From positions 1,798,001-1,862,000 of the forward strand of contig CP069394.1 in NCBI GenBank assembly GCA_016887485.1: a DNA stretch of 64,000 nt. The letters are read 5' to 3'. The notes beneath the pieces were generated by a model, which ran no database searches, was not told the DNA's origin, and worked only from the letters and a program-made list of their open reading frames with translations. The DNA is from Chloroflexota bacterium (lineage in GTDB: Bacteria; Chloroflexota; Anaerolineae; Anaerolineales; Anaerolineaceae). Positions 7,907 through 63,940 of this stretch are shown here, in pieces. The position numbers and the translations under genes were made by a program. How positions within the stretch are numbered: position 1 is the first letter of the stretch; each line of letters starts with the position of its first letter.

Positions 7907-9883
7907 TCATTCTGTTGTTTGCGGAATATACTCCGGTAGTAGGTATAAAATAAGATGTCTTTCACCATCTGACTCAAAATACCACTCATCTTTGAGTGAA
8001 TATGAACCATCCTCCACAATTTCAGGTGATGAGGCATCCAGCACAATGATACCGCATGGCTCAAAATCCGGGGATTCCAGGCTAGCAGTAACATTATCAA
8101 CCGCATAATGTTCAAGGCGATATTCTGATGCATCAGGTGTCAGAGTAGCCCAAAATAAATATTCAGGTACATTTTTACCCAAAACCATACCATATTCACG
8201 GCAGCCTGAGGTATACATCTCATAGGTCATTTCTAGGATTGCACCCTCATATGCCTGATGGTTTGCAAACAGAAGCCCTTTGCGGGACATCGTCCAAATG
8301 CTATTTCGGTTGGATTCTGACCAGGAGAATGAGCGGGAATGATTGTTTAGTAAGGGATTAATCAACCAGGCCAAAAGCGCCGCACAAACCAACCACCCCA
8401 TCCAACGGGGAAGGCACCTACTAAAAATATATCCAACTGCTGGGGCAAAAAGAACATAATATGGGATAAAATACCGTGTTCCCCAGACTTGCCAGCGAAA
8501 TATCGCTGAGAAGATCACCATACCCAAAAAAGCTGCTATACAAAGATACAAAACCTTTCGGTCTTTTGAACAGTTTTTCTTTTTGAACAAAGAAATTAGC
8601 AAAACTAAAACCACAAAACAAGTTACTAAAAAGTGAATAGGATTTGCAGCAACCTCTTCTCGGGTAGGTACAATAAAAAACTCACCTGGTCCATTGGTGA
8701 TCGTCTGGTCAAACACACTTATACCCATCATATTATGAATCGTTGTCAGCGCTTTCATCATAATCTCATTTACAAAACCGATAGAGATCATTTGAGTCAC
8801 AATATTTCGGGAAAGGTTAGATATAACAACATCCAAACCAAATCGTTGATTGAGTGTGAAATCCGCTGCCGATGAATTTAAGGGATCACCAAATGCATTA
8901 AAGTTCCTCAGCCATTGGCCCGCATTAAGACTACCAACCGCCAAAATACCTATCCCAATGAATACTAAAATATCTTTCCAATTTTTCTTCTTAATAAATA
9001 TGATCAAAAGCCAAATCAGTACCGGTAGAACGAAAAATGGAAAATTCCCTTTGGTAAGTAAACCCAACCCAACAGCAATACTTAAGGAAATCTTATCCCA
9101 GACTCCTAGATTCTCATGAGTTGCTTTAATAATGTAATATGCGACCGCAGAAAAGATGAAAGCCAAAACAAGGTCATTTTTCGCACCGGATGCCTGAAGA
9201 ACTACTATAGGCATGGTCAAAATGAATATTGCTGAAATCCACTGACCGTTCTTTTTCGCTCCAAATTGACCAGCGGCCGCACTGACTGCTACCAATGCTA
9301 AGACAAGGCTCTGCCATTGGTTATAAAAAGACATCACATCATTTCCCGTTAGGAGGTAAAAATTCAGCTGGATCATCTCACTAAAAGGCGGCATCCAGAG
9401 CTGCCAGGTGATGGATGTTGGGAAATAATCAAGTGTACGATTTTGGATCCAATGCATGACCCGGCTCATGTGATAGGTAAAGACATCATGAATTGTCGGT
9501 GGAGAAAGGATACCTGTAATGAATAGTATTATCAGAATGATAATAATCAGAACCAGACTAATCCATCCAAAGATTTTTTTAGGCAAACGAATTGAGTTTA
9601 TTATCTGATACCAACCAAAAGCAAATCTTCCTGTTTTCCAAAGAAAGATCAACAAGACAAGTATCGTTAACGCCCAAAAAACAATGACGCCTAAACTTGT
9701 AATCTCGGAAATAAGGCTCAGAATCTCAGTTCCGATGACAAGCCAAGCTGACCATATTAGCGCAGATCTAATTAACGATTCTTGCCAAATAAAATCTGAA
9801 GGTTCTTCAGAAGTCTGAATGGATGCACTATATATCCAGAATAGCAATATACCAATTACTGGAAGTAATGAAAGAACAAGCAT
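7907..9883 (-). CDS. very large GT-C-like polytopic membrane protein
   Basis: A 658-residue protein with about 12-14 hydrophobic segments and a soluble C-terminal tail rich in beta-strand residues. The first extracytoplasmic loop carries PPTIHDVFTYHMSR, with an acidic residue where GT-C enzymes keep their catalytic aspartate, followed by long aromatic loops. It probably transfers sugars from a polyprenyl-phosphate donor, like its neighbours at 5114 and 13358. AAGGGG precedes the ATG. It is strongly AT-rich relative to the flanking SDR and cytidylyltransferase genes, a sign of separate origin. It could instead be a glycan polymerase of the Wzy type; the long first-loop/aspartate pattern makes GT-C more likely. 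Confidence 0.65.
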   Translation of the reverse strand: MLVLSLLPVIGILLFWIYSASIQTSEEPSDFIWQESLIRSALIWSAWLVIGTEILSLISEITSLGVIVFWALTILVLLIFLWKTGRFAFGWYQIINSIRLPKKIFGWISLVLIIIILIILFITGILSPPTIHDVFTYHMSRVMHWIQNRTLDYFPTSITWQLWMPPFSEMIQLNFYLLTGNDVMSFYNQWQSLVLALVAVSAAAGQFGAKKNGQWISAIFILTMPIVVLQASGAKNDLVLAFIFSAVAYYIIKATHENLGVWDKISLSIAVGLGLLTKGNFPFFVLPVLIWLLIIFIKKKNWKDILVFIGIGILAVGSLNAGQWLRNFNAFGDPLNSSAADFTLNQRFGLDVVISNLSRNIVTQMISIGFVNEIMMKALTTIHNMMGISVFDQTITNGPGEFFIVPTREEVAANPIHFLVTCFVVLVLLISLFKKKNCSKDRKVLYLCIAAFLGMVIFSAIFRWQVWGTRYFIPYYVLFAPAVGYIFSRCLPRWMGWLVCAALLAWLINPLLNNHSRSFSWSESNRNSIWTMSRKGLLFANHQAYEGAILEMTYEMYTSGCREYGMVLGKNVPEYLFWATLTPDASEYRLEHYAVDNVTASLESPDFEPCGIIVLDASSPEIVEDGSYSLKDEWYFESDGERHLILYLLPEYIPQTTE

Positions 9884-9902
9884 CTTAGCCCCTTATTTCT
9901 AT

Positions 9903-10724
9903 TTATTCCTTAAACAGACTTTCATACTCAACTTTATTTAAGACGGTCAACTTCCCGCCCACAGTGGCGTCCAGGACCTGTCGTCCATCCGCCTCATAAG
10001 CAGCCTTCGCCATCCGGTAAGCCCTTTCTGAGCCTTCAAGGTCGGGTAGCTGCCAGCGAAAACCCTTTCCGAAGTATTTACCGGAGAAGTGGTTCGGGTC
10101 ATCCCCTTCAGAGGTCACCGTCGTATTCGCGGGACCTTTGGTCACGAAATTATGATCCACCCCAATCAGTATTGCCTCAGAAAAGCCCATAAAATAGGCC
10201 AACTGCAGGCAGACATAGGTCACGGTAAAACCTTCAAACATCCGCCCAGTCGCGTCACCACTGAAATCTTCGGGCAGGGTGTAATCCGTATCCAGGAACA
10301 TCATCTCCGGCCCCGCCTCAAAGAATTTCCGGGCGCGCCAGGTGACGAATTTGGGCAGGTCCAGTGCAGAAATATCCGCATGACACTGTTCCAGCACCAG
10401 ATCATTTACCGAAACCAAACAGGAAGTCTTGAAATCATACTCATCAAAAGCCAGGTAAATGCGGTTCATCCCAAAGGTGAATTCCCCGGCCAGCTTAGTC
10501 AGGTCGGTATTGCGCAGGCTGGGGCCGTTACCCACAATGAAGCAGCGCTGACCGGCATATTTGTTCCGATACTCCTCCAGGCGGGCCTTATTATGCATCC
10601 ACGCCGGTGAAAAGATCTTCGCCATCAAGTGCCGGTCACGGTTATACCAGGACCAATAACGGTCCGACCCGAACCGCCAGAGCGATTCGGGCAGGGCTTT
10701 TTTAAGAGTTGATTTCACGGACAT
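9903..10724 (-). CDS. DUF115 (MptE-like / Maf-type) domain protein, candidate nonulosonate transferase
   Basis: A 273-residue soluble protein. From about residue 60 it has the DUF115 nucleotide-binding signature: CFIVGNGPSLRNTDL, then NRIYLAFDEYDF, and later ILIGVDHNF. The DUF115 domain is found in the motility accessory factors (Maf) that attach pseudaminic or legionaminic acid to flagellin, and it is distantly like sialyltransferases. Here it lies four bases after an SDR gene and in the same direction as a hydroxyacid dehydrogenase and a CMP-sugar synthetase. I infer that it may transfer the CMP-activated sugar made by those genes. The family also includes an archaeal pterin kinase, so the reaction is not certain. 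No flagellar genes are in the window, so a surface glycan acceptor is more likely. Confidence 0.7.
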   Translation of the reverse strand: MSVKSTLKKALPESLWRFGSDRYWSWYNRDRHLMAKIFSPAWMHNKARLEEYRNKYAGQRCFIVGNGPSLRNTDLTKLAGEFTFGMNRIYLAFDEYDFKTSCLVSVNDLVLEQCHADISALDLPKFVTWRARKFFEAGPEMMFLDTDYTLPEDFSGDATGRMFEGFTVTYVCLQLAYFMGFSEAILIGVDHNFVTKGPANTTVTSEGDDPNHFSGKYFGKGFRWQLPDLEGSERAYRMAKAAYEADGRQVLDATVGGKLTVLNKVEYESLFKE

Positions 10725-13357: not shown

Positions 13358-14992
13358 ATGGCAAAAAATAAAAATAGGCAAGCCTTGCTTGTTGCAATAC
13401 CTTTTGTTCTCGCAATTCTAATTATGCTGCCACGTTTATTGTCTCCACAGTTTGGGCTGTTAGATGATGCTACAACCTTGCAACAAGCCCGAAATTTCCT
13501 CGGCGGGGATTTCAGTATGAGCCACGACTTTCAAGCAGGGCGTTTTCGTCCCATATACTGGCTTTATTACACAATAATCTATTTTTTCGCGGGTTACCAC
13601 TCTTTCTGGTATTTCATAAGTAACTTAGTTATCTTATTTATCCTTCTGGTCGAAATCCGGCTACTCCTGAAGCGTTCAGGTGCTGCGGAATGGCAAATAC
13701 TGCTGACTAGTTGCATCTTTCTTTTTTCAATGCCCATCATTGGGAATTTTTATACCCTTTCTAAAGGTGAGCCATTACAACTAACACTCATAATTAGCGC
13801 TATTCTCGTCCTAACCCCCAAATTTGTACACGAAGAGAAGTTACCATGGGCCAAAGGCATATTCGCCGCATCCCTGCTCCTACTAGCTATCATGGTGAAA
13901 GAGACAGCAATTGTCATGCTTCCTTTGATTGTATTCTGGGCGCTTTACGTCACATATTTTAGGAAAAACAAAAACCTCAAATTGTACCGGAAGAATTATT
14001 GGATGTTGGTAGGTTCAGTAACCATTGCAGTGCTGGCTTATTTTGGCTTAAGACAATCCATTCAAAGCACCGGTTTATTAGAAGGTACATATACTGACCG
14101 TTACCTGATAGATCTTGGAGAAACTCTAAATAAACTACTCCGGTGGGTAACACAATACGCGTATTATTTTCATTACACCATGCCCATCACTTTATTCTGG
14201 GTTTGGTTTGTTATCAAGAAGATTTCCATTAACCAAAACCAGAAATTCATGCTTTTTCGTTGGGCTACTTGGTGGTTTTTTTGGTTTGTAGTTTTCATTC
14301 CCTGGACATATGCAGAAAGTTATTATCTCCTACCTTTCGCCTTTGGGGGAGCCATGCTGATCGGTCTCACTGCGCCAGTCTTTCTTAATACGCTTAAAAG
14401 GTCAAAAGCTTCAGGCCGGACAGTTCCACTTATTTTAGGCATTCTGGCAAGCCTCCTGTTCCTTTTGACACTCCCTAATTATCGAACTGAAGCAAAAATG
14501 CAATTAGCATTTGACCAAGCAAATAATGAAATGTTAACTTACCTCACCGAAACAGCTCCCGAAAATTCCACCGTTCTGATGAACCTGCGAACAAGTAATG
14601 AATATTCCGAAAAGTTTGATATATATTTAAAGGAGCATTATCAGAGAACAGATATTAGCTTTGGAGTACTTGATAGCACCCAAATGGAAACTGTGAACAC
14701 CCAATCCTGTGTTATCGCTCTCATGCCTTATATTGAAAACCAACCTACCCTCACCGTCCGTGCCGGGATTGAGGAAACCTACCAAGATAGGTGGAATGAG
14801 ACTTTCCTTATGACAACTGAGGAAAACCGCCAACAGCTAAGTGTTTTTGAAGAATCATTCCGCTTATCTAATATTAACTTACCTATCATTCTTTGCAACT
14901 TCGGGTTAGATGCTGGCTTCTGTCAAAACCCTGATCCTCTCTTTGATTATCGAGCATTCACTTATGGGTGGGAGATTTCCAAAATTCAATGA
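13358..14992 (+). CDS. GT-C-like polytopic membrane protein
   Basis: A 544-residue protein with about 11 hydrophobic segments in the first 370 residues and a soluble tail of about 150 residues. The first outer loop has FGLLDDATTLQQA, with paired aspartates where GT-C enzymes keep their catalytic acid. GGGAGG precedes the ATG. It overlaps the following GtrB-like gene by ATGA, so the two are coupled. That pairing fits a module in which GtrB makes a polyprenyl-phosphate sugar and the membrane protein transfers it to a glycan. The two genes are the only plus-strand, AT-rich pair inside a long minus-strand cluster, so they look inserted. Confidence 0.7.
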   Translation: MAKNKNRQALLVAIPFVLAILIMLPRLLSPQFGLLDDATTLQQARNFLGGDFSMSHDFQAGRFRPIYWLYYTIIYFFAGYHSFWYFISNLVILFILLVEIRLLLKRSGAAEWQILLTSCIFLFSMPIIGNFYTLSKGEPLQLTLIISAILVLTPKFVHEEKLPWAKGIFAASLLLLAIMVKETAIVMLPLIVFWALYVTYFRKNKNLKLYRKNYWMLVGSVTIAVLAYFGLRQSIQSTGLLEGTYTDRYLIDLGETLNKLLRWVTQYAYYFHYTMPITLFWVWFVIKKISINQNQKFMLFRWATWWFFWFVVFIPWTYAESYYLLPFAFGGAMLIGLTAPVFLNTLKRSKASGRTVPLILGILASLLFLLTLPNYRTEAKMQLAFDQANNEMLTYLTETAPENSTVLMNLRTSNEYSEKFDIYLKEHYQRTDISFGVLDSTQMETVNTQSCVIALMPYIENQPTLTVRAGIEETYQDRWNETFLMTTEENRQQLSVFEESFRLSNINLPIILCNFGLDAGFCQNPDPLFDYRAFTYGWEISKIQ

Positions 14993-15951
14993 ACATTCAC
15001 ACTACTTCGAGAATTTCAATTGTTGTTCCCATATTTAATGAAGCTGAAATATTGGAACAATTTCATCACAACCTAAGATCTGTCCTCAATGAATTGCCGA
15101 ACCCGGCAAATATTTATTATATTGATGATGGCTCAACAGATTCCACGCCAGAGATTCTTTATGACCTAGCTCAGAAGGATGAACTAATTCGGGTGATAAC
15201 GCTAAGCCGAAACTTTGGACACCAAGCCGCGCTATCTTGTGGCATCGAATCTGCTGATGGTGATGCCATCATCACCATGGATGGCGATGGACAGAACCCA
15301 CCCGAGCTCATTCCTGAAATGGTGAAATTTTTTCAGGCCGGCTATGATATTGTCATCTGCCAAAGAAAACAAACTCAAAATCAATCCTTGTTCAAACGAT
15401 TGACCTCGCAGAGATTTTATAAACTCATCAATACGATTGGTGATCAAAAAACAATTCCAAACGCTGCAGACTTTCGTTTGCTCTCAAAACGGGCTGCCCA
15501 GGCGCTGATATCCATGCCAGAATACCACCGGTTCCTGCGGGGAATGATCGGATGGATCGGTTTCAAGTCAACTATTCTGCAATTTGATCCCCCACCTAGA
15601 ATTGGTGGTCAATCTAAATACACCGTTAAGAAGATGCTAAACCTCGCAAACGACGCTATCTTTTCATTCTCTTTATTTCCACTTAAATTGGGATTATTCA
15701 CTGGCGGTCTTTTTTATTTTCTCGCACTGATTGAAATTTTGTATATCCTGTTTTTATGGATATCTGGCAATACCAGCCAACTCGAACCAGGCTGGAGTTC
15801 TTTGATGTTCATGATCCTCATTGTTGGAGGAACCCTAACAACTGTCATCAGCTTTATTGGAATCTATATCGGATATATTTTTCAAGAAGTAAAAAACCGC
15901 CCAGTATATATTATTAAAGAAAAGAATATTCCACCTTCCGATGAGGATTAA
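14989..15951 (+). CDS. GtrB/DPM1-like polyprenyl-phosphate glycosyltransferase
   Basis: A 320-residue GT2 enzyme that should move a sugar (glucose or similar) from a nucleotide donor to undecaprenyl phosphate on the cytoplasmic face. Motifs are ISIVVPIFNEAE, IDDGSTDST, the SRNFGHQAALSCGIE helix and TMDGDGQNPPELI, all typical of the GtrB/ArnC group. Two membrane segments lie in the last 90 residues (from LGLFTGGLFYFLAL and from LMFMILIVGGTL), as in GtrB. The start at 14989 overlaps the upstream stop in an ATGA. Together with the 13358 gene it forms a two-gene modification module. Confidence 0.88.
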   Translation: MNIHTTSRISIVVPIFNEAEILEQFHHNLRSVLNELPNPANIYYIDDGSTDSTPEILYDLAQKDELIRVITLSRNFGHQAALSCGIESADGDAIITMDGDGQNPPELIPEMVKFFQAGYDIVICQRKQTQNQSLFKRLTSQRFYKLINTIGDQKTIPNAADFRLLSKRAAQALISMPEYHRFLRGMIGWIGFKSTILQFDPPPRIGGQSKYTVKKMLNLANDAIFSFSLFPLKLGLFTGGLFYFLALIEILYILFLWISGNTSQLEPGWSSLMFMILIVGGTLTTVISFIGIYIGYIFQEVKNRPVYIIKEKNIPPSDED

Positions 15952-15991
15952 TCTACTCTGTAGGTAGGCTATTATTTACAGAATTAAAATA

Positions 15992-17608
15992 CTAATCTTG
16001 CTCATCGCTTAGCAGGAATGGCTTCCCTTCCAGCAGCCCCTCCGAGATCACTCGAAATGTGGGCGAATTCTCCGGCAACAAATCCTTCCATTTAAAATCG
16101 CTCATGCGCACGAAACCTGGCCAGATACCATCCGGTTTCAGGTAATCCTCAAAAGGCAGCGATGTACGGTAAAGTTGGTAATAGAGGAACCGGCGGGCAT
16201 TTATTTTATGCTCCGGTGAAGCTTCCACCTTATCGGCATTGAGAAACGCTTCCAGTTTCGCCAGGTACGCCTCCTGCGTTTTGGGGAAGAAAACCGTATC
16301 CAATTGCGAAAAACGAGCCTTACCGGCACTAAGCACCGGCGCGCCCATGATCGCGGCTTCCATCCCAATCGTGGAGTTATAGATCATCACGAATTTGGAA
16401 CGCTGGATCATCTCATAGGAACTGAAATAGGCCTGCGGGGGAATAAAGGTCACATTTGGCAGATCATCCACCTGGTTCTTCGCCGCCCAATCCGCCACGC
16501 TCTCGCGGCTGGCCTTGCCAGGGCGGGATTCATCCGGGTGGGCTCGGATCACGAATAAGGTCTCGGGATGCTGTTTAGCCACCTTCAGAACTTCATCGAG
16601 CCAGATGAACATATCCTCAAAGACCACATTGGCATGCGGCTGGCTGGTGTCGAAGATCACGTTGGTGAAGACCGGGACGACCTGCTTGAACTGCGCCAAT
16701 TTCTCGATGAAATCGGCATCCAGGCCGCTCATCTCAGGCCAGAACTTCACGCCGGCCATGCTGAAATCGCCCTTGAAGCGTTTTGACAGATACGCATCCA
16801 GGCGCTGGTCCATCTTGGGGGTCAATTGAAAATCGTCCGGGATATCAACCGGATAGGCCGTGGCCTCCCCAGCAGTGAAGAAGGCGGAAGTGGCTCGCAG
16901 CCCAACCTCATGGGAATAGGCTGGGATGCCATGTTTCTGCGCCACCCAACGGGCGGCAGCCTCAGGGAACTGCATCCCATTGAAAACCATCACGGCCAGC
17001 GGGTGCAGCTCGTTGATGAGGGCTTCAAATTGAATAGCGACGGAATAGGCGGAAAGAATATAGTCTCGATAGAGCTGGGTGGTTGGGGCGTCATCCATCA
17101 AATGATGGCGGCGCAGGATCCACCGCATGGAGGGTAAACAAATCTCACCCAGCGGTATATCCTCATAAGTAAAGGTCTGCAATTCAGCCAGCGTCAATCC
17201 CTTGAGTGCATCTTCAAGGTCGGCATCCGGGTCACCGGCCATCCAGACCAACTCCTGCCGGTCATAAATGGCGTTGGATTGCTTCACGCAATGCTCGCAG
17301 GGCGGCTCGCGGAGGACGTCATCGGTTCGTGTCCCCAACACACAGCGGCGCATCCCGTGCAGACAAGCAAAATTGACCACCCGCACTCCCTGCAGTTGGA
17401 GTGACCAGCCGGTCAGCATGGCAAAAGCCGCGTTCAGGCTCAACCCGGTGATCCGGGTTGAAGCGTTGAATGAAATGATGACTCGATCATCTTTGGGGGC
17501 TGGCGCGAGGGCTTCTACCAAGCGGGCCATTCTGCGGATGTCACGATTTATGGCCTGCCGCGCCGGTTTAACCTGCAAGAGGTCTTTTGCTCTTTCCAAA
17601 ACCGTCAT
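15992..17608 (-). CDS. KpsC/KpsS-like surface polysaccharide glycosyltransferase
   Basis: A 538-residue soluble protein. The C-terminal half has the features of the capsule polysaccharide (KpsC/S, GT-B-like) group: VIRAHPDE near residue 355 and SKFVMIYNSTIGMEAAIMG near residue 418, where the Glu and the GxE-type loop bind the nucleotide donor. KpsC and KpsS are Kdo transferases using CMP-Kdo. Since CMP-activated nonulosonates are made next door, this may be the transferase for one of them, but the similarity is only at fold and motif level. An N-terminal region of about 150 residues has several cysteines (CLHGMRRC, CEHC), possibly structural. It follows the NeuB gene at 17622 in the same direction, 13 bases away. 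Confidence 0.6.
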   Translation of the reverse strand: MTVLERAKDLLQVKPARQAINRDIRRMARLVEALAPAPKDDRVIISFNASTRITGLSLNAAFAMLTGWSLQLQGVRVVNFACLHGMRRCVLGTRTDDVLREPPCEHCVKQSNAIYDRQELVWMAGDPDADLEDALKGLTLAELQTFTYEDIPLGEICLPSMRWILRRHHLMDDAPTTQLYRDYILSAYSVAIQFEALINELHPLAVMVFNGMQFPEAAARWVAQKHGIPAYSHEVGLRATSAFFTAGEATAYPVDIPDDFQLTPKMDQRLDAYLSKRFKGDFSMAGVKFWPEMSGLDADFIEKLAQFKQVVPVFTNVIFDTSQPHANVVFEDMFIWLDEVLKVAKQHPETLFVIRAHPDESRPGKASRESVADWAAKNQVDDLPNVTFIPPQAYFSSYEMIQRSKFVMIYNSTIGMEAAIMGAPVLSAGKARFSQLDTVFFPKTQEAYLAKLEAFLNADKVEASPEHKINARRFLYYQLYRTSLPFEDYLKPDGIWPGFVRMSDFKWKDLLPENSPTFRVISEGLLEGKPFLLSDEQD

Positions 17609-57992: not shown

Positions 57993-58046
57993 AGCGCCAT
58001 TCGGCTTATAATGGCAGCAACCCCCGCGCAACGAACCGGAGCTGTC

Positions 58047-59024
58047 ATGACCCAAGCCAAACCAACCGAACACACCCCCACCTATAACCGATCTGATTAC
58101 GTCGGGCTGCTCGTGCGGCTCGATATCCCCGGCACCCTGGCCTATCTGGACGCGTGCGGTGAGACGGGCATGGCCGATGCGCTGCGCCGCAAGCTGAGCG
58201 ACCCCGAACCCTTCGCCACCGGGGACGCCACGTTGGACGCGATCCTCAACGCCTATCAGCGTTATTTCCAGACCTGCTTCACCCCCGCGGACTCATCTCT
58301 GGACGAGTTGGAACAAACTGCCCGCGAAACGCTGACCGTGCAAATGCGAGAGATCCTCGACCAGCCCGGCGCAGACCTGGACGCACTCGAGGAAACTGCC
58401 AAAGCCGCATTTGAGGCTGCGGGCTGGCACTTCCTGGGCGGCACCACCGGCAGCCACTATGGGCCCTACATCTGGCAGGAAACCACCCGCACCGATTACG
58501 CCGTGGAGATCCCCTCGGGCACCGAGACCGTGACCGTCTTCTGGATGGACGGCTTCCTGATGCGCAGCTGGCTGGATTGGCTCTCGGATGGCGAGGTGGG
58601 CGCAGGCGGCTGGGCCAAGGACGAGGGGCTCTACTGCGTCCGCAAGGTCTATGCCGGCAAGCTCGACCAGCCCAGCTTCCAGATCTCCTTCCTAAAGCAC
58701 GAAGCGCAGCACCACGCCGACTTTAGAAGGGGCGAGCTGGAATCCTGGGAACTGGAATACCGCGCCAAGCTGGTGGAGCTGATCTACTACCCCGATTCAT
58801 CCTTCCTGAAATCGCTGCTGGCCTCCGCCGACCTGGCGAACAAAGGCAACAGCCATGCCTACGCGGCGGGGAAGATCGTGGCGGATATAAGCGCGTGGCT
58901 GGAGAGCCAGGGCGCAGCGGATGGGATGCGCGCGCTGGAAGCCGCCACAGCGGATGATCGGAATTGGGAGGATGTGCAGGGGGTGATTAGGAGGGGAAGT
59001 AGGGAGTTGTTGGGACTCAATTGA
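58047..59024 (+). CDS. uncharacterised protein with HExxH motif
   Basis: A 325-residue soluble protein that I do not recognise. Residues 218-222 are HEAQH in LKHEAQHHADF, a zinc-metallopeptidase-type motif, with Glu237 about 15 residues later as a possible third ligand (ELEYRAKLVEL). The N-terminal part is acidic and helical. The ATG at 58047 has GGAG six bases upstream, and a TATAAT lies at 58007-58012. It follows the CrtI-like gene with a 54-base gap. A metalloprotease or other zinc hydrolase is possible but not shown; the motif may be chance. It is followed by a hairpin that ends transcription in both directions. Confidence 0.6.
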   Translation: MTQAKPTEHTPTYNRSDYVGLLVRLDIPGTLAYLDACGETGMADALRRKLSDPEPFATGDATLDAILNAYQRYFQTCFTPADSSLDELEQTARETLTVQMREILDQPGADLDALEETAKAAFEAAGWHFLGGTTGSHYGPYIWQETTRTDYAVEIPSGTETVTVFWMDGFLMRSWLDWLSDGEVGAGGWAKDEGLYCVRKVYAGKLDQPSFQISFLKHEAQHHADFRRGELESWELEYRAKLVELIYYPDSSFLKSLLASADLANKGNSHAYAAGKIVADISAWLESQGAADGMRALEAATADDRNWEDVQGVIRRGSRELLGLN

Positions 59025-59038
59025 AGCTGAACAAAAAA

Positions 59039-59061
59039 GGAAGCCTAATTTCAAGGCTTCC
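59039..59061. terminator. two-way intrinsic terminator
   Basis: GGAAGCC (59039-59045) and GGCTTCC (59055-59061) form a perfect stem. On the minus strand it is followed by TTTTTTGTTC, a strong terminator for the AT-rich gene pair; on the plus strand the tail ATATTTACT is weaker and may end the HExxH gene. Confidence 0.75.
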
Positions 59062-59091
59062 ATATTTACTCAGATTGACATCTTGAAACAA

Positions 59092-59109
59092 TCCTGAATT
59101 TGTTCAGGA
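59092..59109. repeat. perfect short hairpin in the 59.1 kb gap
   Basis: TCCTGAA and TTCAGGA with a four-base loop TTTG. It lies between the 58-residue ORF and the terminator and may be part of the 3' end of that transcript. Confidence 0.4.
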
Positions 59110-59137
59110 ATATCAATATGTCAAATTCATAAAATCA

Positions 59138-59314
59138 TCATTTCTTCTTAGAAAGAACCTCAGTATTACACTCTCTTTTAATTTTTATTTGGACATTAAT
59201 TCTTGAGTTGCGTAAGTCAGGACTATAGGGGTAACGGAAATCTCTGTTTACAGCAGATACTGAACCTAAGTCATAGGGACTCGAATGTTTAAGAGCATAA
59301 TCTCTATTGCACAT
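59138..59314 (-). CDS. small ORF after the AT-rich 470-residue gene
   Basis: A 58-residue reading frame starts with ATG at 59314, 15 bases after the stop of the 470-residue gene, and runs to TGA at 59138. The sequence is basic (KIKIKRE, KKK at the end), with two cysteines and a Tyr/Pro-rich middle (YDLGSVSA, RYPYSPDLR). A weak GAGA lies before the ATG. A strong minus-strand terminator 77 bases later fits a shared transcript. In AT-rich DNA 58 codons without a stop is only mild evidence, so it could be a chance ORF or a remnant. I do not recognise it. Confidence 0.4.
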   Translation of the reverse strand: MCNRDYALKHSSPYDLGSVSAVNRDFRYPYSPDLRNSRINVQIKIKRECNTEVLSKKK

Positions 59315-59329
59315 AATTTCTCAATTCTG

Positions 59330-60742
59330 TTATTCTCTTGGAGTTATATAGTAATTCCAAAAAGTATTTGTTAATAATTGATCACCAGTTGCTAATCGAT
59401 AAATACAATTTGATGTTGTCTCGATTAAATATAAATCTTGTTGATCGACAGACTCATTATGGGTCACTAGCTTAAATTCTAAGTTTTTCGTTATTACTGC
59501 CTTTATTATTTTAGCACAAGATTTTAAATCTCGAACAACCAATACTCCATTTGCTACTCCCCTCTCTAAAAATACTTGGATACCCAAAGGATGTTTTTCA
59601 CTCAATAGTGAAGCACGAGCATCATATTTCTCGCCAATAATTTCTTTCAGTTTTCTTTTAGCCAACTCGAGCGAAACCGAGTTTGAATTATCTACCCAAG
59701 CTTGAACTTGTTCATCTTCCCATGCTAATTGAGGTTTATATTCTTTGATTTTATCCATCACTAATTCTTCTTGAGTTTTCCTTGGGTACAACTCCCCTAA
59801 ATTCTTCAGAAACTCAATCATATAATCATCATCAATTCTAGGCACATATGCGATTACTGTTTTTCCTTGTGCCAAGGTCGATGCCAACTCAGAGTCTTTG
59901 CCCAAAGTGTCAGATTCTTGAACAAAATAAAGAGTACATTTTGCCCTCTTTAACATCAATGCTTCAAAAAGGCCTTTATCTATACGGCTTTCGCAGAATG
60001 CCTGTGTAGGATCAAACCATCTCAATTTTAATCTTTTTATATCACCGAAATTAAAAATTTCCTTCACCCATTTATTTATAAAGAAATATTCTTCTCTAAG
60101 CCGCATAGAGGTTGCAATATATACATCAAGATGGTCAGATGTTAAATAAGCTTGATAATTTCTTTTACCTTTCTGAACAATTTCCTGGGAATAATCATAC
60201 TCCCGCTGAATTTCTACATCGTCGGGATTATCTAATAATGACTGTTTTAGTTGGTTTTGAGTCAAATGTCCTAAATAATATGTCTCCCTTCCATCAATCG
60301 GGTTTACAGGATTGATCGGTTCATGCCGATTTTCAAATTCTTCCTCATCAATTGGCTCTGTAATAACCAGCCAATCGTATAGAACATCTGAATCGGTAGA
60401 AAAAATCTTAAATGCATTTTGGATATTCCCATAACTTAACAGCGCAAGCTTTCTAAATCTAGTTACGGCTAATGCAAATTCACTAAAAGATAGGAAAAAT
60501 TCATCTTTAATTTCAACAGTGCCATCCAAAAGGTATTGAAAAAAGGTTCTTGATACTAGTTTATAACCTAAAAGCAACTGCAATTCATTAAATTGACTAA
60601 ACCCCATACCCTCTTCAGGAAAGTTATGAAAAATAGAATCATCTGATAATTCAAGCGATAATGGCGCTGGGTAACCATTTAATAAAAATAATAATTGAAC
60701 AAAATCGTAATCTAAATCTATTTGATCTTGAATTTCACCCAT
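59330..60742 (-). CDS. AT-rich orphan protein with a nucleoside deoxyribosyltransferase/TIR-like segment
   Basis: A 470-residue protein that I cannot assign to a known family. Residues 204-300 contain LDVYIATSMRLREEYFF, WFDPTQAFCESR and KGLFEALMLKRAKCTLYFV, then GKDSELASTLAQGKTVIAYVP. This matches the pattern of nucleoside deoxyribosyltransferase- and TIR/SLOG-like nucleotide-processing folds, where a Glu in a DSELA-type helix (Glu285) is catalytic. The N-terminal 200 residues and C-terminal 170 are unlike anything I know. The gene is much more AT-rich than its surroundings, has its own promoter and sits alone with a 58-residue ORF, so it looks acquired. A role in nucleotide or NAD cleavage, for example defence, is a hypothesis. 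Confidence 0.65.
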   Translation of the reverse strand: MGEIQDQIDLDYDFVQLLFLLNGYPAPLSLELSDDSIFHNFPEEGMGFSQFNELQLLLGYKLVSRTFFQYLLDGTVEIKDEFFLSFSEFALAVTRFRKLALLSYGNIQNAFKIFSTDSDVLYDWLVITEPIDEEEFENRHEPINPVNPIDGRETYYLGHLTQNQLKQSLLDNPDDVEIQREYDYSQEIVQKGKRNYQAYLTSDHLDVYIATSMRLREEYFFINKWVKEIFNFGDIKRLKLRWFDPTQAFCESRIDKGLFEALMLKRAKCTLYFVQESDTLGKDSELASTLAQGKTVIAYVPRIDDDYMIEFLKNLGELYPRKTQEELVMDKIKEYKPQLAWEDEQVQAWVDNSNSVSLELAKRKLKEIIGEKYDARASLLSEKHPLGIQVFLERGVANGVLVVRDLKSCAKIIKAVITKNLEFKLVTHNESVDQQDLYLIETTSNCIYRLATGDQLLTNTFWNYYITPRE

Positions 60743-60784
60743 TTGATTCCACCCTGCCTTTTATTTAGAAAGAATACAGAAATA

Positions 60785-60814
60785 ATTTTATCATAACCAT
60801 AAGAAATTAATCAA
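60785..60814 (-). promoter_or_regulatory. promoter of the AT-rich orphan gene
   Basis: On the minus strand TTGATT (60809-60814), 18 bases, TAAAAT (60785-60790) preceded by TGA as an extended -10. It lies in the 143-base AT-rich gap before the gene. Confidence 0.5.
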
Positions 60815-60885
60815 TATAACTAAACGAATATCATATATTATTATAATATATTCTTATTTATTTTGTTTTCAATCCAATTCCCCCC

Positions 60886-62097
60886 CTACTCCACCCCCAT
60901 AAACCGCAGCATCACCTCGAACACAAAGGTGTTCTCATGCAAGCCAATAAAGGCCTCGGCGCCGTCACCCAGGGCCGTGACGGGCACGTGCGCGTAGGTG
61001 TGGTCACCGGAATGCCAGGTGATCCAGAATTCGGTCCCATTGGGCATCTGGAAGGGGCCGCCCTCATCCACGGTGCCGGTCGGGTCATAGTTCACCACCA
61101 GGCCGCCGGTCTCGTGGTCGGCGGTGACGATCACCAGCGTGTTCTCGTCCCCCTCTGCCGCCGCCACCCCCACTGCCACGGCCTCGTCAAAGCCAATCAC
61201 ATCATCCATCACGTTCTGTGATTCATGGAAGTGGCTGGCGATGTCGATCATCGCGCCTTCCACCATCAGGAAGTATCCGTTGGGGTTCTGGTCCAAAATG
61301 GCAATCGCGGTCTCGGTCATCTCCGCCAGCGTGGGCGAATAGGGGCGCTCCATGTTCTCATCGGCAAACAGCCCCAGCACCTTGGTATCCGTAGCCGGGT
61401 CAATTTGAGCCAGGCCCGCCGCGTCACAAATGGTGACATAGCCCGCGTCTTGCGCTTCCGTGACCAAATTGCGCCCATCGGTGCGGTTGCCCAGCTCGGG
61501 GTAACAGCCCGTCTCTTTGGTGGGCAGGAAGTCATCCTCGCCCCCGCCCAGGATCACATCCACGCCATGTTCCAGCATCTGCTCAGCGATCTCATCTCGC
61601 ATCGAACTTTCATAGACGTGCGTGGCAAAGGCGGCGGTAGTGGCATCGGTAATGTACTTGGTGGAGACCAGTCCCACCGACATCCCCTGGGCCTGCGCGA
61701 TCTCCAAAATGGACGTCAGGGTGTTGCCGTCCGGGTCCACCCCGATCCGTTCGATATCGGTCAGCACACCGGTGGCCATCGCGGTGGCCGATGCGCCCGA
61801 ATCGGGCAGCGTGTCGCCATAAGATTCGGTGCTCAGCCAGCCGGAGACATCCAGCGAATTCATCGCCAGCTTGCGCACCTCGCCCAGCGAGTAATACTGC
61901 CCGGCCCGGCGGTGCTCCGCACCCATCCCATCGCCAATAAAGAGCATGATCCGGGGCCGCTCACGGGGCGTGACGGGAAGCGTGGGGGCTTCGGTCACAA
62001 CGGACGTTTCCGTGGCGGTGGCGTTGATTTGCGGCGTAGGAGCAACACATCCTGAGAGCATCAGGACCAGTAAAAGCAGGTAGAAGGTTTTTTTCAT
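60886..62097 (-). CDS. alkaline phosphatase lipoprotein
   Basis: A 403-residue PhoA-type phosphomonoesterase. The signal peptide ends with LMLSGC, a lipobox, so it is anchored outside the membrane. Metal and catalytic residues are visible: IMLFIGDGMG (Asp), the nucleophile Ser in PDSGASATAMATG, VEGAMIDIASHFHE (Asp, His), VIVTADHETGG (Asp, His) and HSGDHTYAHVPVT (His). It releases phosphate from organic phosphates outside the cell. It starts one base after the membrane sulfatase-like gene ends, so the two are probably co-expressed. Confidence 0.92.
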   Translation of the reverse strand: MKKTFYLLLLVLMLSGCVAPTPQINATATETSVVTEAPTLPVTPRERPRIMLFIGDGMGAEHRRAGQYYSLGEVRKLAMNSLDVSGWLSTESYGDTLPDSGASATAMATGVLTDIERIGVDPDGNTLTSILEIAQAQGMSVGLVSTKYITDATTAAFATHVYESSMRDEIAEQMLEHGVDVILGGGEDDFLPTKETGCYPELGNRTDGRNLVTEAQDAGYVTICDAAGLAQIDPATDTKVLGLFADENMERPYSPTLAEMTETAIAILDQNPNGYFLMVEGAMIDIASHFHESQNVMDDVIGFDEAVAVGVAAAEGDENTLVIVTADHETGGLVVNYDPTGTVDEGGPFQMPNGTEFWITWHSGDHTYAHVPVTALGDGAEAFIGLHENTFVFEVMLRFMGVE

Positions 62098-62098
62098 A

Positions 62099-63631
62099 TC
62101 AATCCTGGGGACTGCAGAGGGTTTTCACCAGTGCGTCGATATCGGCGAGGTCATAGGTCTGCCAAACGTCATAACTGCGGTCGTTCAGCAGCCCATAGTC
62201 CGAGCCAAAGAGGTCGTTGAAGAGCAGGCGGAAGACATTCACCAGCGAGATACCGTCATAAAATCCAGCATCCACCGGGTCAGTCCCCTGCGTATAGATG
62301 GCAAAGAGGTTCTCAAAGCGTTCCTCGATCGGCCGCCCCTTGACAATTGCGCCGTGATCGCCCATGACGATGATGATCGGCGGCTTATCGGATTTTGCGA
62401 TGATCTCCTCCAAAATCGCTGGGAGGACCGAATCAATATATTCGACCGATTCGACGTATTCTTCCGGGGTGATCGACTTGGTGTCATTGAACGTACCATC
62501 CGTATGGAACACAAAGGGGTCATGCGTGACCAATAAATGGGCATAGACGAATTTATTACCGGGCATCTCCACTTCCGGCAGGGTTGGCAGGGTATCCAGC
62601 GCGTAGAGAGTATCGCGGTAGTGGCGCAGATAGAGGTTGTCGTCAAAAGGATAGGCCCACGCATCCGGGAAAGCGCCATCCATATCGATCAGAATCCGCA
62701 GGATGGAGGTATCCACAATCAGCCGCTCAAACTCTGTGATGCTGCCGGTGAAGGTGCCCTCTCGGGCATAGCGGATGTCATCGTTGATGTTGAAGTGGGC
62801 AAAGACGAAATTCTGAAAGGTGATCGTCTGGTAATCATGATCGTTAAGCGTCTTGAAGACCGTGCTCTCATTCAAAGGCGGCAGCACAAGATGATCGCTG
62901 TCCTCATAGAGGTGATGGAGGTAATCCAGCCCAAACATGGATGCGGTGGAGAGATAGGTGATCGGGTAATTTGAAGTGGAACAATCCGCCACCCAAAATC
63001 CGAGGTCTTCCAGCTCGCTGACAAACTCGGAATTATCCAGCCCGTAAACCTCCTCGAGCACATCCGATCGGGTATACCCATCCACCAGGATCAGATAGAT
63101 ATCCGGCAGGTTGGCAATGCTCTCTGCGGAAAGGGCGGAGGCCAGTGGTGCGCTATCCTCATCCAGGCTTGCCTGGGTGTGATAGACCTTGTATTCATAG
63201 ATCCCAATCGATACGGCCAGATAGCCAATGATCGCTACAACGCCCAGCTCAACGGCCGAATTCAGGCCGCGGGCATCTTTGACCTTGAAGATGATCAGCC
63301 CGACAATCAGCAGGTAGAGGGCCAGAATAACAGGCAGCAACCAGCGATGATTCACCACATCGCCCAAACGCGCCGTTAATATCAGATAAAGGTTGCCATA
63401 AAAAAGCAGCAGGAAGGCTAAAATCCCCGAAAGCAACCCCGCCTTGATCGGATCCCGGAGGAATAGGAAATAGAGCAGATAAAAAACCGCCGTGACGCCC
63501 AGTGTGATGAGCAATGGCCGGTAGAGCGCTGGGATATTGACAAAATCAACGTTGTTTTGCGCGAGAGAAAGAATTGGGAATACGGCTAATAAGACTGGCG
63601 TGAGATATTCATACCACTTTGCTTTGTTCAC
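62099..63631 (-). CDS. membrane-anchored sulfatase/alkaline phosphatase superfamily protein
   Basis: A 510-residue protein. About five hydrophobic segments in the first 165 residues anchor it. The outer domain has LPDIYLILVDGYTRSDVL (first metal Asp), a Thr/Ser nucleophile region NYPITYLSTASMFG, LVTHDPFVFHTDG and IIVMGDHGAIVKGR with the Asp-His metal pair. The sulfatase C-x-P-x-R motif is absent, so it is not a formylglycine sulfatase; it resembles LtaS/phosphotransferase-type relatives. It could move phospho-groups onto a glycan. The start codon is GTG with AAGGA seven bases upstream. A TTGAAG-TATAAT promoter lies 42 bases before it. Confidence 0.75.
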   Translation of the reverse strand: MNKAKWYEYLTPVLLAVFPILSLAQNNVDFVNIPALYRPLLITLGVTAVFYLLYFLFLRDPIKAGLLSGILAFLLLFYGNLYLILTARLGDVVNHRWLLPVILALYLLIVGLIIFKVKDARGLNSAVELGVVAIIGYLAVSIGIYEYKVYHTQASLDEDSAPLASALSAESIANLPDIYLILVDGYTRSDVLEEVYGLDNSEFVSELEDLGFWVADCSTSNYPITYLSTASMFGLDYLHHLYEDSDHLVLPPLNESTVFKTLNDHDYQTITFQNFVFAHFNINDDIRYAREGTFTGSITEFERLIVDTSILRILIDMDGAFPDAWAYPFDDNLYLRHYRDTLYALDTLPTLPEVEMPGNKFVYAHLLVTHDPFVFHTDGTFNDTKSITPEEYVESVEYIDSVLPAILEEIIAKSDKPPIIIVMGDHGAIVKGRPIEERFENLFAIYTQGTDPVDAGFYDGISLVNVFRLLFNDLFGSDYGLLNDRSYDVWQTYDLADIDALVKTLCSPQD

Positions 63632-63672
63632 CTGTGAGTCCTTGTGCGCTGGTGAGGTTTCGACTGAAAATT

Positions 63673-63701
63673 ATTATACTGTCAGTCCTCAATCCCTTCA
63701 A
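63673..63701 (-). promoter_or_regulatory. promoter of the sulfatase-like gene
   Basis: On the minus strand TTGAAG (63696-63701), 17 bases, TATAAT (63673-63678). The start near 63666 gives a leader of about 35 bases with AAGGA before the GTG codon. It should also serve the alkaline phosphatase gene. Confidence 0.6.
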
Positions 63702-63940
63702 ATAGCCCTGTGGGATGGTTTAATCGCTTTTACGCGTTGTAAATCAACACCTAAAAGGGTATGCTGGGGTTAAATAATGCACCTGTCTCCCACTTGAAAC
63801 CCCGAACCTCTAAAATAAGCAAAAAAAATTTTGAGGCAATTTGATTTTTTTGTCAGATTGAATATTGCGAATCAAGTAGAAATGTTCGGCCAATTCTGGA
63901 GAGCTTTCATCCAGATTTGAGAGCCATATTGGTAATTAAG
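63702..63940. other. non-coding stretch without recognisable features
   Basis: I see no gene, RNA or clear promoter here. The last part is AT-rich and leads into the double-hairpin repeat at 63941. Confidence 0.5.

Follow-up and report, generated by a model that had tools for sequence, protein, structure and literature searches.

Does an isolated AT-rich gene in a GC-richer region of an Anaerolineaceae genome belong to a mobile defence module, and on which nucleotide would its product act? The gene (59330-60742, minus strand, ATG start) encodes a protein of 470 residues and lies in a 64,000-nucleotide stretch from a Chloroflexota bacterium (assembly GCA_016887485.1, contig CP069394.1, positions 1,798,001 to 1,862,000), which is called the window throughout. 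An earlier reading made from the letters alone, the sequence-only reading below, had described an orphan protein with a core like that of nucleoside deoxyribosyltransferases (NDT) or TIR domains, coupled to a small open reading frame (ORF) in a possible antiphage system. The interpretation favoured here, tentatively and at a rough probability of 0.47, is a mobile N-glycosidase effector with a small partner protein, probably antiviral and acting on deoxynucleotides or NAD+.

Conserved core and predicted active site

Three full-length relatives were found, which removes the supposed orphan status: one is encoded by a tailed phage and two by genomes of the same order. The phage protein, retrieved from IMG/VR with a degenerate DNA pattern on DSELAxTLAQGK, has 478 residues and is 46% identical to the window protein over residues 14-468. 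A two-sequence profile recovered further relatives of 471 residues (genome G1014) and 636 residues (genome G1033) from 400 genomes of the order, and in the four-way alignment the relatives are 44, 49 and 34% identical to the window protein. The reading frame is open in all four members. Their pairwise identity is 59-73% in the core and 32-61% in the C-terminal part, as against 20-48% in the N-terminal parts and 8-35% in a helical insertion. Such a slow catalytic core with fast flanks would fit an effector in which the parts for sensing or regulation evolve in step with a variable counterpart.

The predicted catalytic core, delimited by model, profile and alignment, spans residues 200-303 (59834-60145, minus strand) and appears to adopt an NDT/DNPH1-like fold. 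Its structure was modelled with AF2 from the four sequences, giving a mean predicted local distance difference test score (pLDDT) of 65 and a predicted template modelling score of 0.65; a model from the single sequence (pLDDT 34.6) was discarded. In blocks of ten residues, pLDDT is 77-93 over residues 141-250, 78-92 over residues 291-380 and 59-76 between them. The top Foldseek match in the PDB is 7m5h (E 0.022, probability 1.00), and DNPH1 takes rows 3, 5 and 6 (probability 0.97-0.99, E 0.10-0.14). The protein in 7m5h comes from E. faecalis V583 and is probably the V583 NDT structure listed in excerpts of PMC12884076. The top five VIA-align rows consist of 7m5h (Z 10.9, root-mean-square deviation 2.7, 124 residues aligned) and four NDTs (Z 9.0-9.8), with deviations of 2.7-3.2 over 118-131 aligned residues. 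Further NDT and DNPH1 rows follow at Z 7.7-8.9 and TIR domains at Z 7.7-8.7, lower than the best NDT rows and comparable to the weaker ones; only the top rows carry weight, because the unrelated GTPase YsxC reaches Z 8.5, like the lower NDT and TIR rows.

A profile comparison made independently of the structure model gives the same ranking. With hhalign, the family scores 23.4 (residues 195-315) and 23.5 (residues 200-425) against seven NDT-family proteins, values reached by none of 100 column shuffles each; against six TIR domains it scores 13.2 both times, a value that 23 and 41 of 100 shuffles also attain. When the reference sets were enlarged to 11 NDT-family loci and eight TIR domains, NDT scored 20.1 and 19.9 (92 columns aligned), values that 2 and 1 of 100 shuffles reach, and TIR 15.3 and 15.2 (8 and 15 of 100). 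The probabilities that hhalign itself assigns are low in every comparison (2-10% for NDT), so this result is relative only and places the core nearer to NDT than to TIR. The seven NDT references were picked by eye from 13 PF05014 loci, and one of the seven, L018, lies under the Pfam cut-off; the wider set holds 11 of the 13, two with ambiguous frames being omitted, and the TIR references are six, then eight, of nine TIR_2 loci. Taken together, model and profiles support fairly well a fold class nearer to NDT/DNPH1 than to TIR, and the protein looks built like an NDT-superfamily enzyme, yet lies outside PF05014 by model match. Of the two cores proposed by the sequence-only reading, the NDT-like one is thus upheld by the top VIA-align rows and the profiles. 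The TIR one is not, as there is no Pfam TIR match and the TIR profile scores are reached by 8-41 of 100 shuffles.

The fold comparison also locates a putative active site. The motif DSELASTLAQGK covers residues 283-294; its Glu285 (codon 59888-59890, minus strand) lies in model helix 280-291 and is the predicted catalytic nucleophile, and Tyr208 (codon 60119-60121, minus strand) is its predicted partner by the NDT/DNPH1 signature. Tyr208, Gly281 and Glu285 are invariant in all four members and correspond to the invariant Tyr, Gly and Glu of NDTs; the Tyr stands in strand 1 in 7 of 7 aligned reference proteins, and the Glu is invariant in all seven. The earlier choice of Glu285 as the catalytic-position residue therefore stands, and a Tyr208/Glu285 dyad is fairly well supported by the alignments. 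In excerpts of PMC11204291 the Tyr is described as hydrogen-bonded to the catalytic Glu in NDTs and in DNPH1, both 2'-deoxy-specific, and TIR NADases as usually carrying Phe or Ala at this position. Replacement of either the Tyr or the Glu inactivates DmtZ, an NDT-family phage enzyme, according to excerpts of PMC12884076. Tyr208 thus suggests that a deoxynucleotide, namely a deoxynucleoside monophosphate, is favoured over NAD+ as substrate.

Likely small partner ORF

In all four loci a 54-65-residue ORF with an ATG start follows the large gene on the same strand, beginning -1 to +36 nucleotides from its stop, so the two-gene layout described earlier is supported. The window copy (59138-59314, minus strand) has 58 residues, begins 15 nucleotides past the stop of the 470-residue gene and contains the motif PYDLxxVxxVN. 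The G1033 start codon shares bases with the stop (TAATG) and is preceded by GGAGG. Dinucleotide shuffles reached the observed ORF length in 44 of 3000 cases for the window, 167 for the phage, 22 for G1014 and 57 for G1033. The product of the four frequencies is about 1e-7, a figure to be read with the knowledge that the test was devised after looking and that the four loci are a non-random sample. The small ORFs of the window and G1014 (L035, 62 residues) share the pattern K...PYDL..V..VN...R, with a Smith-Waterman score of 44 that 3 of 2000 shuffles reach. A six-frame scan of seven sequences showed PYDLxxVxxVN at no other place. Among seven small ORFs compared with that of the window, only the G1014 one stands out, the others being reached by 207-1950 of 2000 shuffles. 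Judged from these comparisons, the ORF appears to be a genuine partner in two of the loci and a likely one in the remaining pair.

Mobility and genomic context

The island (59.1-60.9 kilobases) differs from its neighbours as the sequence-only reading had claimed: the GC content of the large gene is 0.333, compared with 0.615 in the left flank and 0.573 in the right flank, and the two 1-kilobase bins covering 59001-61000 (0.343 each) are the lowest of the window's 64. The relatives are AT-rich against their surroundings as well, with GC contents of 0.456 in the phage (flanks 0.655 and 0.687), 0.374 in G1014 (0.517 and 0.539) and 0.311 in G1033 (0.584 and 0.475), so that the contrast holds in four of four loci. 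The IMG/VR contig is that of a tailed phage and encodes a terminase large subunit, a sigma-factor-like protein, the relative in antisense orientation, a portal protein, a scaffold protein and a major head protein; the phage locus is a moron layout. Foreign composition in all four loci and carriage by a phage support a horizontally mobile cassette. As the relative is carried by a phage, the cassette is probably a mobile phage-defence module.

Among the neighbours scanned there are four in the window (a 337-residue protein without match, an alkaline phosphatase, an amine oxidase-like and a sulfatase-like protein), an M3 peptidase and a single-strand binding protein in G1033, and an M50 peptidase, an epimerase, a HEPN/nucleotidyltransferase pair and HrcA (by eye) in G1014. 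In the survey of neighbours that the sequence-only reading had proposed, the cellular genes scanned are ordinary but differ from locus to locus and one locus is a phage, so the homologues do not show the constant metabolic setting that was meant to refute it. As an observation of its own, the HEPN and nucleotidyltransferase genes of G1014 (PF05168 and PF01909; L035:7521-8236, plus strand) have a typical toxin-antitoxin layout and lie about 0.6 kilobases from the homologue.

The insertion site can be compared on one side with the sister genome G009, which alone among the genus's 15 other genomes has the alkaline phosphatase. G009 is colinear with window positions 60879-63773 at 76% DNA identity, and the edge of colinearity lies at 60879-60886, where the alkaline phosphatase side is kept and the island side is replaced by an unrelated gene. 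Left of the junction, ungapped identity is 6-10 matches in each 20 bases, and a gapped alignment shows a short AT-rich similarity patch beside the junction. The G009 site holds an AT-rich (GC 0.301) gene for a 425-residue AAA ATPase (PF13304, AAA_21; L037:24-1301, minus strand) whose best PADLOC match is HEC-01A (E 2e-51). It matches 127 PADLOC families at E up to 0.01, and since such ATPases match many PADLOC models, it is a defence candidate and not a proven system; literature searches on HEC-01 returned nothing relevant. The 337-residue protein of the other flank occurs in 1 of the 15 genomes (55% identity) and the G009 contig ends close behind the ATPase gene, for which reasons an empty site was not seen. 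The claim of an AT-rich mobile cassette is strengthened by the phage copy and by a site shared with a defence candidate. For protection against phages, the evidence from mobility, carriage by a phage and the site shared with a PADLOC candidate in one sister genome is indirect.

Proposed mechanism and alternatives

In the proposed mechanism, the large protein would cleave the base (or nicotinamide) from a nucleotide, with Tyr208 holding the nucleophile Glu285. The helical insertion and the variable N-terminal region would serve to hold the enzyme inactive or to detect infection, and the product of the small downstream ORF, if translated, would regulate the large protein. On phage infection the enzyme would then destroy a nucleotide pool and stop phage growth, probably abortively. 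Substrate, trigger and antiviral purpose are the steps that we infer. A more specific version is possible but doubtful: a two-gene immune or addiction system made of a large stand-alone deoxynucleotide N-glycosidase of NDT/DNPH1 fold with a helical sensor and a tiny, fast-evolving downstream regulator, carried by bacteria and also by phages, there for superinfection exclusion.

Several observations weigh against the mobile effector. The family is known from four sequences, and no recognised defence gene was found among the neighbours scanned in the window, phage and G1033 loci. On the structural side, no Foldseek row falls under E 0.001, the block containing Glu285 has a pLDDT of about 59, and the YsxC score given above overlaps the lower NDT rows. 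The third residue of the NDT triad is not conserved in place: NDTs carry Asp or Asn 24-26 residues before the catalytic Glu, where the four members have no invariant Asp or Asn and the invariant Glu260 sits 25 residues before Glu285. The strand-1 Tyr is not exclusive to NDTs, since 2 of 8 TIR domains carry it (the other 6 have Phe), and one NDT match under the cut-off has Phe there. Widening the reference sets lowers the NDT profile score and slightly raises that of TIR. The phage small ORF (L005) is by itself within chance at 167 of 3000 shuffles, and neither it nor the G1033 one (L036) aligns convincingly with that of the window.

The shrinking NDT lead is the reason why the favoured interpretation and its more specific version are weighted lower and a NADase effector higher. 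This NADase would have the same fold and act on NAD+, as has been described for Retron-Eco1. NAD+ is a possible substrate because a standalone NDT-like effector in that retron is reported, in excerpts of PMC12405507, to defend through NAD+ hydrolysis, and TIR domains do appear in VIA-align at the Z scores listed above. Tyr208 argues the other way, since Phe or Ala is usual at its position in TIR NADases, if less firmly given the two TIR domains with Tyr. The four flanking window proteins scanned also include no reverse transcriptase, and a NADase is accordingly judged unlikely.

The small ORF bears on whether the cassette is primarily a mobile toxin-antitoxin or addiction module, with the enzyme as toxin, the 54-65-residue protein as antitoxin and phage defence secondary or absent. 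A small ORF downstream in four of four loci, once overlapping the stop behind GGAGG, its fast divergence and the carriage of the cassette by a phage are all consistent with such a module. Most type II antitoxin genes are not downstream of the toxin, however, unlike the small ORF, and of the four small proteins just two can be recognised as relatives of each other, which leaves this explanation improbable.

Phage carriage is also what would be expected of an accessory enzyme of phage type, serving nucleotide metabolism or the handling of modified bases and acquired by bacteria as a phage remnant, and phages do carry NDT-family enzymes such as DmtZ (excerpts of PMC12884076). The phage copy, however, lies antisense beside the portal gene and is AT-rich relative to its genome. 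None of the 10 phage proteins scanned was named as a nucleotide-metabolism enzyme, although two weak DNA-binding matches are filed in that category. The roughly 145-residue phage NDT domain has about a third of the protein's length, and querying 50,697 phage records with two relatives, two core segments and the window protein itself yielded no relative, so a role of this kind is very unlikely. A non-functional or neutral AT-rich import would suit the patchy and rare occurrence but is scarcely credible, because the core has stayed 59-73% identical against 8-48% in the N-terminal and insertion parts, with the frame open in all four members.

Comparison with known systems and databases

Should the mobile effector cleave deoxynucleotides, the known defences that deplete nucleotides, among them deaminases such as AvcD and dGTPases, would be joined by one that breaks the glycosidic bond in the deoxynucleotide pool. 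The effector would also test whether the strand-1 residue (Tyr versus Phe or Ala) predicts a deoxynucleotide or an NAD+ target within one fold, and four sequences, a predicted dyad and a small ORF make a direct bench test possible. With the NDT/DNPH1 (Rcl)/MilB/DmtZ superfamily the window protein shares the core fold, the active-site Tyr and Glu and a Gly four residues before the Glu. It differs in lacking a PF05014 match and a triad Asp/Asn in place, in its length of 470 residues with a 200-residue N-terminal region, an 80-residue helical insertion and a C-terminal extension, and in the mobile two-gene layout of its cassette. The NDT-like effector of type II retrons (Retron-Eco1/Ec86) is likewise a standalone protein and sits in a defence setting (excerpts of PMC12405507); in the window a small ORF stands in place of a reverse transcriptase among the four flanking proteins scanned, and the two are likened by description only. 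TIR-like NADases, including the DUF4062 proteins (Swarozyc; excerpts of PMC13174449), resemble the window protein in having a related alpha/beta fold, a catalytic Glu and an enzyme domain combined with auxiliary regions. The window protein has no Pfam TIR or DUF4062 match, carries a Tyr at the position occupied by Phe in 6 of 8 TIR domains, and its profile similarity to them is weaker than to NDT. AvcID is alike in idea, since it pairs two components of which the enzyme draws down deoxynucleotides during infection, but it combines a deoxycytidylate deaminase toxin with an RNA antitoxin (PMC10511110), whereas the window has an N-glycosidase-like core and a small ORF.

The family is patchily spread, occurring in its own genome and two others among the 400 genomes of the order. 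Searches in 61, 400 and 385 genomes matched its own genome alone, and two families that were searched gave matches in 1 of 152 and 2 of 147 genomes, all of them already known members. In 396 genomes of the class, seven short matches (43-82 residues, E 0.0017-0.09) accompanied the own genome and were dropped as chance. These draws overlap and all lie within one phylum. Pattern scans of genome contigs and a first viral scan gave no match, probably because the patterns were exact 8-mers, and the contig scans, with their poor patterns, say little on other phyla. Further viral scans found no second contig beyond the phage copy, plasmids gave no match or chance-level matches, and E. coli DNA held no relative. 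The 50,697 phage records gave chance-level matches at most.

Searches of Pfam, PADLOC, NCBIfam and PHROGs with the window protein gave nothing above chance level, and no PDB chain was matched by its sequence. For the four members together, PADLOC gives no match, and single weak unrelated ones come from Pfam (EPSP synthase, E 0.32, window protein) and NCBIfam (AroK/AroB, E 0.0084, one member). At E up to 10, none of the four matches an NDT-type model of Pfam or NCBIfam or a Pfam model for TIR or DUF4062. Tools built on Pfam, NCBIfam, PADLOC and PHROGs would miss the family, since the first three contain no convincing match to the four members and PHROGs contains none to the window protein. Literature searches found no description of this protein family, which appears new by database criteria, with a known fold and a logic known in outline.

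Other features of the protein and the window

Outside the core, model and alignment define a helical N-terminal region of residues 1-199 (60146-60742, minus strand), a putative sensor or regulatory part with pLDDT under 50 over residues 1-130, and a helical insertion of residues 304-382 between strands 4 and 5 (59597-59833, minus strand). Residues 383-470 (59333-59596, minus strand) form a conserved C-terminal part that includes the last strand and a helix aligned to NDT folds. For the N-terminal region, a profile search of the PDB gave chance matches only, and Pfam gave no match for three members. The N-terminal part of the 636-residue relative (L032:2134-2439, minus strand) is a separate case, with calmodulin or troponin C in 8 of 9 PDB matches (E 0.35-4.3), a weak EF-hand-like similarity that serves as a lead only.

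The sequence-only reading had given the island its own promoter and terminator. An intrinsic terminator with an 8-pair stem and a six-T tail lies 3' of both ORFs (59039-59061, minus strand), and 3 terminator-like sites were observed where shuffles of the island gave 1.0 +/- 1.1. The promoter-like site TTGAAA-N16-TATATT (60843-60872, minus strand; match 60872-60845) is a consensus match only. With 15 such sites against 9.0 +/- 3.2 in shuffles of the AT-rich stretch, a promoter here is no more than plausible, because AT-rich DNA yields many such matches by chance. Repeats around the island are partial and AT-rich, and none frames it cleanly. In the 337-residue neighbour (58011-59024, plus strand), which has no Pfam match, inspection by eye shows an HEAQH sequence resembling a zinc-protease motif. 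Two PF05014 genes (L006 and L016; G003:C40:7042-8012) adjoin each other in a relative of the same genus. Other AT-richer stretches of the window, at 8001-10000 and 14001-16000 (GC about 0.40), hold membrane and glycosyltransferase-like genes by eye and look like ordinary surface-polysaccharide genes.

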